Shown here one piece after another: positions 39,499 through 42,427 of a stretch of DNA of 50,221 bases. The stretch's first letter is position 1. Every line of letters begins with the position of its first letter. The DNA is from Cryomorphaceae bacterium (GTDB lineage: Bacteria; Bacteroidota; Bacteroidia; Flavobacteriales; Schleiferiaceae): assembly GCA_020832345.1 (NCBI GenBank), contig JAFIEY010000206.1, positions 1 to 50,221 on the forward strand, read 5' to 3'. A program made the translations under genes and the position numbers. The notes under the pieces were generated by a model. That model saw only the letters and a list, made by a program, of their open reading frames with translations, was not told the DNA's origin and did not search any database.

Positions 39499-39879
39499 TT
39501 ATTTTTTATCCTTTGGACGTTTGGTTCCATATTTAGAGCGTCGCTGTTTACGACCGTCAACGCCGGCTGTATCGAGGGCGCCCCGTACAATGTGGTATCG
39601 CACACCGGGTAAGTCTTTCACCCTGCCACCACGTACGAGTACGATGGAGTGTTCTTGCAGGTTGTGACCTTCACCCGGAATGTAGGCATTCACCTCATTT
39701 CCGTTGGTCAAACGCACACGCGCTACTTTACGCATGGCTGAATTTGGCTTCTTTGGAGTAGTGGTATACACACGTGTACATACTCCTCTTCTTTGCGGGG
39801 ACGCATCAAGGGCAAGTGACTTGCTCTTCTTCTTGATTTGGTTGCGCCCTTTGCGCACTAACTGTTGAATAGTCGGCAT
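39499..39879 (-). CDS. rpsL: 30S ribosomal protein S12
   Basis: 126 residues. Decoding-centre protein. [21 protein letters not shown] and [23 protein letters not shown] keep Lys at both sites where streptomycin-resistance changes occur, so the sequence is of the sensitive type. First gene of the superoperon; a perfect promoter lies 61 bases upstream of the ATG. Confidence 0.97.
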
Positions 39880-39940
39880 ACTGACTCGAAACTATTTGTT
39901 ACTCAATATTGTGATTTTATACCCTACTTTTAAGGGACTG

Positions 39941-39970
39941 CAAATGTATAACAATTTGAGACACTAGCAA
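39941..39970 (-). promoter_or_regulatory. Promoter of the str-S10-spc-alpha superoperon
   Basis: Minus strand: TTG (39970-39968), exactly 19 bases, then TACATTTG (39948-39941): a perfect Bacteroidetes housekeeping promoter. Start of transcription near 39934 gives a leader of about 55 bases before rpsL. No further strong promoter was seen up to rplQ, so it may drive most of the 17 kb unit. Confidence 0.75.
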
Positions 39971-40235
39971 GCATGGGTTAATATTTTTTTTTCAGAATAA
40001 TACAAAACCTTTGATTTTTTAGCAAACCCCACCATTTACAAGCCTTAAGCGATGATGCAAACCTTCAAAAACCCAAATCATCGACAGTACATTTTCTCCC
40101 ATTTTGGAATGTTTTAGGAAAAAACACCAAAAAAAAACCTTGCATTCCTACGTGTTTTTCGTCTAAAATAGCATGTGGGTTTCCTTTTGCTGGAAACGTG
40201 GCTCGTGAACAGCAATCAAATCCTTTTATATTTTC

Positions 40236-40484
40236 ACACCTGATAATAGGTCAAGGGCGCCTGCCACCCCCATTATCATCCATTGCAAACAAATACATAC
40301 GCACGTGGGGGTGTCATCAGGCTGTCCGCTTTAGCCACCGATTTCGTGACCAACATCGGCGGGGCGTGCGGGGTCTGCTCCTATCGTCGCAGCCGCCACC
40401 GCCCACACCGCTGTACGGCCACGAAACCGGTGGGCTGCCGCTTCCATCCCTGGCGCCGGATGAACAATCACACAAAATAGGTGT
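40236..40484. ncRNA. Candidate structured RNA, GC-rich island between rpsL and pyrG
   Basis: About 250 bases that are very GC-rich within an AT-rich gap and have nested complementary segments. ACACCT (40236-40241) pairs with AGGTGT (40479-40484) and closes the whole. GGGCGCCTG (40255-40263) pairs with CAGGCTGTCC (40318-40327), continued by CACCCCCA (40265-40272) with TGGGGGTG (40306-40313). GCCACCGATTTCGTGACC (40334-40351) pairs with GGCCACGAAACCGGTGGGC (40417-40435); inside it CTGC/GCAG and GG/CC form a further hairpin (about 40371-40394). The strand is open: the long third helix has G-U pairs only if transcribed from the minus strand, whereas the first arm favours plus. A -7-like TAGATTTG (40562-40555, minus) is a possible promoter. 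RNase P, tmRNA and SRP RNA signatures were sought and not found. Confidence 0.5.
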
Positions 40485-40554
40485 CAAGAAATGAATTCTA
40501 TTAACCCCACAAGTATTGTATGCCATAAGGAGAATGCACCGCATATTACACCCG

Positions 40555-40562
40555 CAAATCTA
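40555..40562 (-). promoter_or_regulatory. Possible -7 element reading toward the structured RNA
   Basis: Minus strand TAGATTTG matches TAnnTTTG exactly, about 70 bases ahead of the closing helix of the RNA candidate. No TTG is found at 17-23 bases upstream, so the assignment is weak. Confidence 0.25.
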
Positions 40563-40574
40563 TAAAGGTAAGTA

Positions 40575-40601
40575 GAGCCTAGCCATAATGTCATAGTGGC
40601 T
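40575..40601 (+). repeat. Hairpin repeat, divergent copy 1
   Basis: GAGCCTAGCCATAATGTC, then ATAGTGGCT. It resembles the copies at 45410 and 50192 at most positions. AGCCA and TGGCT at its ends can pair over a short loop. Confidence 0.55.
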
Positions 40602-40632
40602 GAACTAGAAAGTTCGAGAGCAAGGCTTGCGA

Positions 40633-40650
40633 CCCCGATAGCTATCGGGG
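40633..40650. repeat. Perfect 18-bp palindrome
   Basis: CCCCGATAGCTATCGGGG is identical on both strands. It lies in the pyrG upstream gap; the core GCTATCGG recurs about 75 bases later. The role is unknown; a dispersed palindrome or a regulator site are both possible. Confidence 0.6.
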
Positions 40651-40738
40651 GGAAAACAGTGATTTTACATGAGTAAATGACCTTTTTTCCAACCGAGCAT
40701 AACGCAGCTATCGGACTTTCTACACAGACACTAATTAA

Positions 40739-42427
<1,689 letters not shown>

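Follow-up and report, generated by a model that had tools for sequence, protein, structure and literature searches.

Between two genes that we take, from their open frames, to be rpsL (39499–39879, minus strand) and pyrG (40808–42427, plus strand) lies a short island of strongly paired, GC-rich DNA, and the question is whether it is an RNA belonging to its neighbours, one copy of something more widespread, or a product of chance. The window analysed is the whole stretch of 50,221 nucleotides from a Cryomorphaceae bacterium, whose genome we call the source genome. Across 40257–40456 the GC content is 0.635 versus 0.42 for the whole window, with AT-richer gaps on both sides (0.35 for 39880–40257 and 0.40 for 40458–40807), and RNA folding gave z-scores of −3.9 for the plus and −6.3 for the minus strand. 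An open frame of 98 amino acids (40198–40494) spans the hairpin.

Fold, strand and shared architecture

The earlier note had described a GC-rich structured island in an AT-rich gap, which these values of GC content and folding confirm; its 17-bp helix is equally real and forms the base of the conserved arm (Table 1). The outermost 6-bp closure that it drew at the island limits found no support. It falls beyond the part common to the copies, and the 14 positions preceding that part at the 5' end, compared across 22 copies of the source genome, are hardly conserved, with a mild preference for C at the last few positions; the closure therefore looks like chance pairing. On the 3' side of 22 copies, the five positions after P1 are loosely conserved (C in 20, C in 17, A/T in 20, A in 17 and A in 15).

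Table 1 Parts of the window copy, listed in the 5' to 3' order of the minus strand after the whole element
Feature	Position	Strand	Remarks
Whole element, long-armed Flavo-1-like structured RNA/hairpin repeat	40257–40456	−	200 nt
Closing helix P1, 5' strand (GCGCC)	40452–40456	−	Pairs with 40257–40261; compensatory changes in relatives
5' foot (AGGGATGGAAGCGGCAGCC)	40433–40451	−	Most invariant columns of alignment A1 lie here
Long GC-rich arm, including the 17-bp helix	40337–40432	−	Covariation (helices 4–7) and fold
3' foot (GGCTAAAGCGGACAGCCTG)	40318–40336	−	Alignment A1
P3, hypervariable second hairpin	40262–40317	−	Sequence differs among copies of the source genome, stem kept
Closing helix P1, 3' strand (GGCGC)	40257–40261	−	Pairs with 40452–40456; covariation
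3' tail, loosely conserved elsewhere, here CCTTGA	40251–40256	−	C, C, then A/T-rich in other copies

Read on the minus strand, the general plan runs from a closing helix P1 (NNGCC pairing with GGCNN) through a 5' foot (AGGGATGGNAGCGGCAGCC), an arm whose length varies, a 3' foot (GGCTAYAGCGGACAGCCCG) and an optional P3 to the second P1 strand. The short closing helix and the foot are the conserved parts; the long arm and the second hairpin of the window copy vary greatly, with compensatory changes, and the conserved unpaired bases differ between the two sides of the foot. P3 is almost wholly different between most copies of the source genome while its stem is retained, and a few pairs of copies share it.

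Covariation was measured on an alignment (A1) of 28 rows taken from 42 full copies, 14 close ones being left out; duplicates (L063, L067, L076, L083) and copies that were truncated at contig ends, incomplete or not caught by the patterns (L010, L012, L017, L020, L021, L023, L025, L026, L034, L040, L061) had been removed beforehand. The compensatory changes for which the earlier note had proposed a search were found: both sides have changed in 33 of the 47 pairs, 86.0% of cells pair, and none of 500 shuffles reached the alignment in any of five measures. All 28 rows form the two P1 pairs 1–163 and 2–162, each of which occurs in three pair types. The covariation score was 0.355 versus 0.05–0.08 with slid partners, of which some excess is expected because the A1 structure was drawn by RNAalifold from the same rows.

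Within the 35 well-paired columns, 867 cells are Watson–Crick, 34 G-U, 15 A-C and 57 other (1081, 44, 32 and 151, respectively, for all 47 pairs), and the sense fold has the lower energy in 38 of 42 full copies. The excess of G-U over A-C cells and the sense-fold energies lean towards the minus strand as the one that folds. A structured non-coding element on the minus strand, as proposed from the first inspection, is borne out; that strand is the better paired one and has the lower z-score.

Dispersed copies and their relation to Flavo-1

We made a covariance model, R1, out of 28 copies from several Bacteroidota. At E ≤ 0.01, and with 150 of 251 candidates scored, it has 58 matches in the source genome, four of which are truncated at contig ends; BLAST of 40150–40560 against the same genome, run at E ≤ 1, returned 43 matches, one of them the query stretch itself. 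These 58 matches, together with the folding z-scores, rule out a chance origin of the structure, and the single-copy reading of an unnamed housekeeping RNA, one of two suggestions in the earlier note, fails on the same number. Within the family, 12 of 41 genomes including the source genome were positive for R1 at E ≤ 0.001, with 1 to 53 matches each (the top counts being 53, in the source genome, 25, 13, 12 and 8). In a phylum-wide sample of 395 genomes, again including the source genome, at least 28 carried R1 matches, these counts being lower bounds owing to stricter filters and eight scored candidates per genome. A 23-base foot pattern picked out 23 stretches in named genomes, 19 of which were judged on reading to be whole elements (L062, L065, L073 and L077 carry the 5' motif only and are not counted as elements). 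Their hosts are Flavobacteriales, Cryomorphaceae, Schleiferiaceae, Sediminibacterium, with seven elements in one MAG, Prolixibacteraceae and one unplaced Bacteroidetes MAG; viral contigs gave no match to the foot pattern.

Some copies are part of larger arrangements. Several in the source genome (L004/L017, L006/L009/L011/L013 and L005/L014) have about 75–200 bases of 5' flank in common at roughly 89–100% identity, a number of them at contig ends, and these are either larger composite repeats or assembly effects. The stretches around L014 and L019 are related (75% identical over 565 bases), each with an element copy on the same side, and encode what we take to be serpin-like proteins. Five of the seven elements of Sediminibacterium MAG03 (L064, L066, L069, L072 and L082) contain a near-identical inner palindrome (CTTTCCAAAGTT...AACTTTGGAAAG) within P3, which looks like the insertion of a further hairpin repeat.

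A family name is provided by Rfam at reduced stringency. When 231 bases were searched, the window copy (40311–40465, minus strand) matched Flavo-1 (RF01705) over model positions 1–76 of 76 with 31.5 bits and E = 3.6e−5; the match was absent from the output when 931 bases were searched, and a second copy of the source genome (L119) reached 23.4 bits (E = 0.005, 191-base search). The gathering score of Flavo-1 is 42 bits, and Rfam does not report the family here because the window copy scores below it. At the gathering score, neither the window nor 16 loci from named genomes gave any Rfam match, which agrees with the earlier note as far as RNase P, tmRNA and SRP RNA in the window are concerned. 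Its proposed Rfam check thus had a divided outcome, Flavo-1 being identified at 31.5 bits and the match staying below the gathering score; since the curated score is not reached, we do not file the element as a member of Flavo-1.

At E ≤ 0.01 and with 150 candidates scored for each model (of 848 in the case of RF01705), the Flavo-1 model found 0 matches in the source genome versus 58 for R1, and it found none in three congeners either (up to 150 candidates scored per genome). With the same number scored, seven genomes of the same order belonging to genus g21, presumably Flavobacterium, gave 41 to 127 RF01705 matches each, three other genomes of the order 40, 40 and 19, and two of the class one each; 0 of 14 control genomes matched. 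In the reverse direction, 19 of the 28 R1-found loci L124–L151, from other genomes of the order and class, were given to Rfam (L125 and L151 not among them), and 18 matched Flavo-1 at E ≤ 0.5: ten reached the gathering score and eight more matched at E ≤ 0.014, L135 being the one with no Flavo-1 match. Long arms are found at five g21 loci (L124, L125, L126, L130 and L151), where the apical loop, GCGAC....GGAAGC, resembles the one in the wider group around the window copy; as Flavo-1, L124 scores 50 bits, over the cut-off, L130 36.1 and L126 30.8.

The element shares with Flavo-1 the foot and hairpin architecture, a full-length model match and many dispersed copies in Bacteroidota, and accepted Flavo-1 RNAs are among the matches of R1, the model made from this element and related ones. 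It differs in its arm, which is about 96 nt long and GC-rich as against about 30 nt in the best copies of another genome (G433), and in the extra hypervariable hairpin P3; long arms, there AT-rich, are also present in g21 (L124, L126 and L130). We therefore place the window element beside Flavo-1, as a relative that is divergent and long-armed. Since the Rfam model reports none of this long-armed branch in the source genome, Flavo-1 may be more widespread among Bacteroidota than annotation suggests.

Host function or copying between sites

We put a probability of roughly 0.6 on the island belonging to a dispersed family of non-coding hairpin repeats, related to Flavo-1, that are copied between sites and whose foot is recognised as a folded single strand. 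The foot, folded as single-stranded RNA or DNA, would be bound by a trans-acting factor, and this putative factor would spread or exchange copies and arms among intergenic sites; the window copy would then be an insertion between two divergent operons, with no special role for rpsL or pyrG. We judge this likelier than a host small RNA or an mRNA element, and prefer it because of the mixed orientation of the copies and the published passages on Flavo-1 described below.

Under the host-RNA alternative, which we regard as possible though distinctly less probable, the copies would be transcribed as small RNAs or within mRNAs to the benefit of the host, the foot would bind a protein for stability or processing, and the arms would drift because only pairing matters. 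Rfam's typing of Flavo-1 as an sRNA favours it, as does the preference for the sense strand in both pair types and folding energies, which fits RNA and counts against the dispersed-repeat reading. Orientation relative to genes speaks against a host RNA. G433 has 111 Flavo-1 copies at E ≤ 0.001, spread along the chromosome, and among the best 30 of these, 29 with a gene on both sides, 11 are in tandem sense, 12 in tandem antisense, 4 in convergent and 2 in divergent arrangement; in the source genome, 19 of 30 loci were classed, as 8 tandem antisense, 4 tandem sense, 4 divergent and 3 convergent. The genes in these counts are open frames from a simple script, with frames over the element set aside, rather than annotations. 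Relative to replication, copies in G433 show a weak orientation bias: the best split, 19 plus and 37 minus versus 33 plus and 22 minus (p = 0.008, best of the scanned split positions), roughly agrees with the switches in GC skew sampled at 20 places, and we call it weak because the split was chosen by scanning and a patch at 1.35–1.9 Mb has reversed skew.

In the literature, Flavo-1 appears as a table row in Weinberg 2010 (PMC2864571) and as a table row without function in a further paper (PMC9029176). The Flavo-1 passages of a transcriptome study of F. psychrophilum report that several 5' transcribed regions coincide with Flavo-1 matches, and that the matches appear to lie indistinctly in sense and antisense, many outside transcribed regions, giving no real clue to function (PMC9723704). 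Our searches of open-access text turned up no paper that treats Flavo-1 as a repeat which moves or swaps its arms. With a constant foot and an exchangeable arm occurring in sense and antisense alike, the question moves from the targets of an sRNA to what recognises and spreads the hairpin.

Comparison of single sites yields evidence for both readings. At one site in g21, beside a conserved gene (L128), 30 of 61 searched genomes were compared; the foot was found by the strict pattern in 10 of the 30 species, L128 included, and by eye in several more rows with one or two departures (e.g. L185, L190, L194 and L199), the remaining rows holding remnants or nothing recognisable. Feet are similar among the element-bearing species, and several arms are unrelated in sequence yet paired. 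Replacement of the arms on retained feet counts in favour of the copied repeat. The keeping of the foot at this orthologous site by a fair share of the 30 species, with the arms changing, favours a host RNA: presence at the same site in many species could equally reflect selection for a host function. Species that lack the element have remnants here or AT-rich sequence unrelated to it, so that there is no clean empty site in which to read a target duplication.

The second comparison concerns two copies, L015 in the source genome and L031 in genome G003 of the same genus, that apparently occupy the same site (66% identity over 235 bases of flank). The core of L031 is 0.909 identical to that of L015 and closer to several other copies of the source genome (L003 at 0.93, L004 and L013 at 0.923, L006 at 0.916), as expected if copies exchanged; mean core identity among 22 copies of the source genome is 0.85 (231 pairs). 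These identities fit exchange or copying between sites without proving insertion. Weighing against the reading as a copied repeat are the lack of a clean empty site, of a target duplication and of a tied transposase in the loci seen, the window's Flavo-1 score below the curated cut-off, and the 0 Flavo-1 matches among the 150 of 848 candidates scored in the source genome.

A bolder version of the copied-repeat reading, which we offer tentatively and think rather unlikely as a whole, would place Flavo-1, together with the long-armed forms related to it, in a new class of hairpin elements, in which the foot is the predicted recognition site of dedicated machinery that would swap or re-copy arms among up to a hundred or more sites per genome via a folded single-stranded (RNA or DNA) intermediate.

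Palindromic DNA repeats, known transposases and the ribosomal operon

A plain palindromic DNA repeat of MITE or REP type, moved by a known transposase and with no single-strand-specific recognition, would account for the multiple intergenic copies and for the near-perfect palindromic arms of the g21 copies. The element resembles MITEs and REPs with their RAYT (Y1) transposases in being a short intergenic hairpin repeat present in tens of copies and both orientations, but differs in having no long terminal inverted repeats, target duplication or tied Y1 gene in the loci inspected. Its ends are inverted over just 5 bp, and no target duplication was seen by eye in the flanks, where no empty site of a close strain is at hand to compare. 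The conserved unpaired bases, unlike on the two sides of the foot, are likewise at odds with a DNA palindrome, and we consider this explanation improbable. Mobilisation by Y1/RAYT was itself rejected, as no Y1 gene adjoined a copy in the 12 loci inspected of 55 Y1 transposase matches in 16 genomes; one of the 12 had a Flavo-1 match, about 1 kb off.

HEARO, the omega RNA of IscB-type elements, is likewise a structured RNA with many stand-alone copies. It found no support, there being no Rfam HEARO match in the window or the loci scanned; the IscB N-terminal domain PF14239 had 0 matches in the source genome, and 0 of 14 controls matched either.

The sole Y1 match of the source genome (L093, G000:C99:38083–38376) contains two internal stops, and next to it is an Acido-Lenti-1 match that scores under the cut-off. 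In another genome (L254, G398) a Y1 gene is flanked by Acido-Lenti-1 matches on both sides, of which one is at the cut-off and the other below. Both loci suggest that Acido-Lenti-1, an 'sRNA' in Rfam, may be the end of an IS200-like element. Two Flavobacterium genomes are included in the REP-count table of the RepRanger paper, in a passage that mentions neither Rfam nor RAYT (PMC12306157).

An RNA of the ribosomal operon, whether leader or housekeeping, is very improbable: it has only position in its favour (about 380 bases upstream of rpsL), and the cis element suggested by the earlier note is contradicted by the 58 genome-wide matches and by BLAST, which at E ≤ 1e−3 found nothing similar within 1.5 kb upstream of rpsL in L087, L088 and L089, from the three same-genus genomes that cover this stretch, so we see no special tie to the operon. 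rpsL and pyrG are on separate contigs in all four same-genus draft genomes.

The same intergenic gap also holds a second repeat family (40569–40739, about 170 bp), found in at least 26 other places of the source genome and in all four same-genus genomes, in one of which (G001) a copy lies directly upstream of pyrG; it forms a long helix with a CCCGATAGCTATCGGG palindrome at about −52 kcal/mol.
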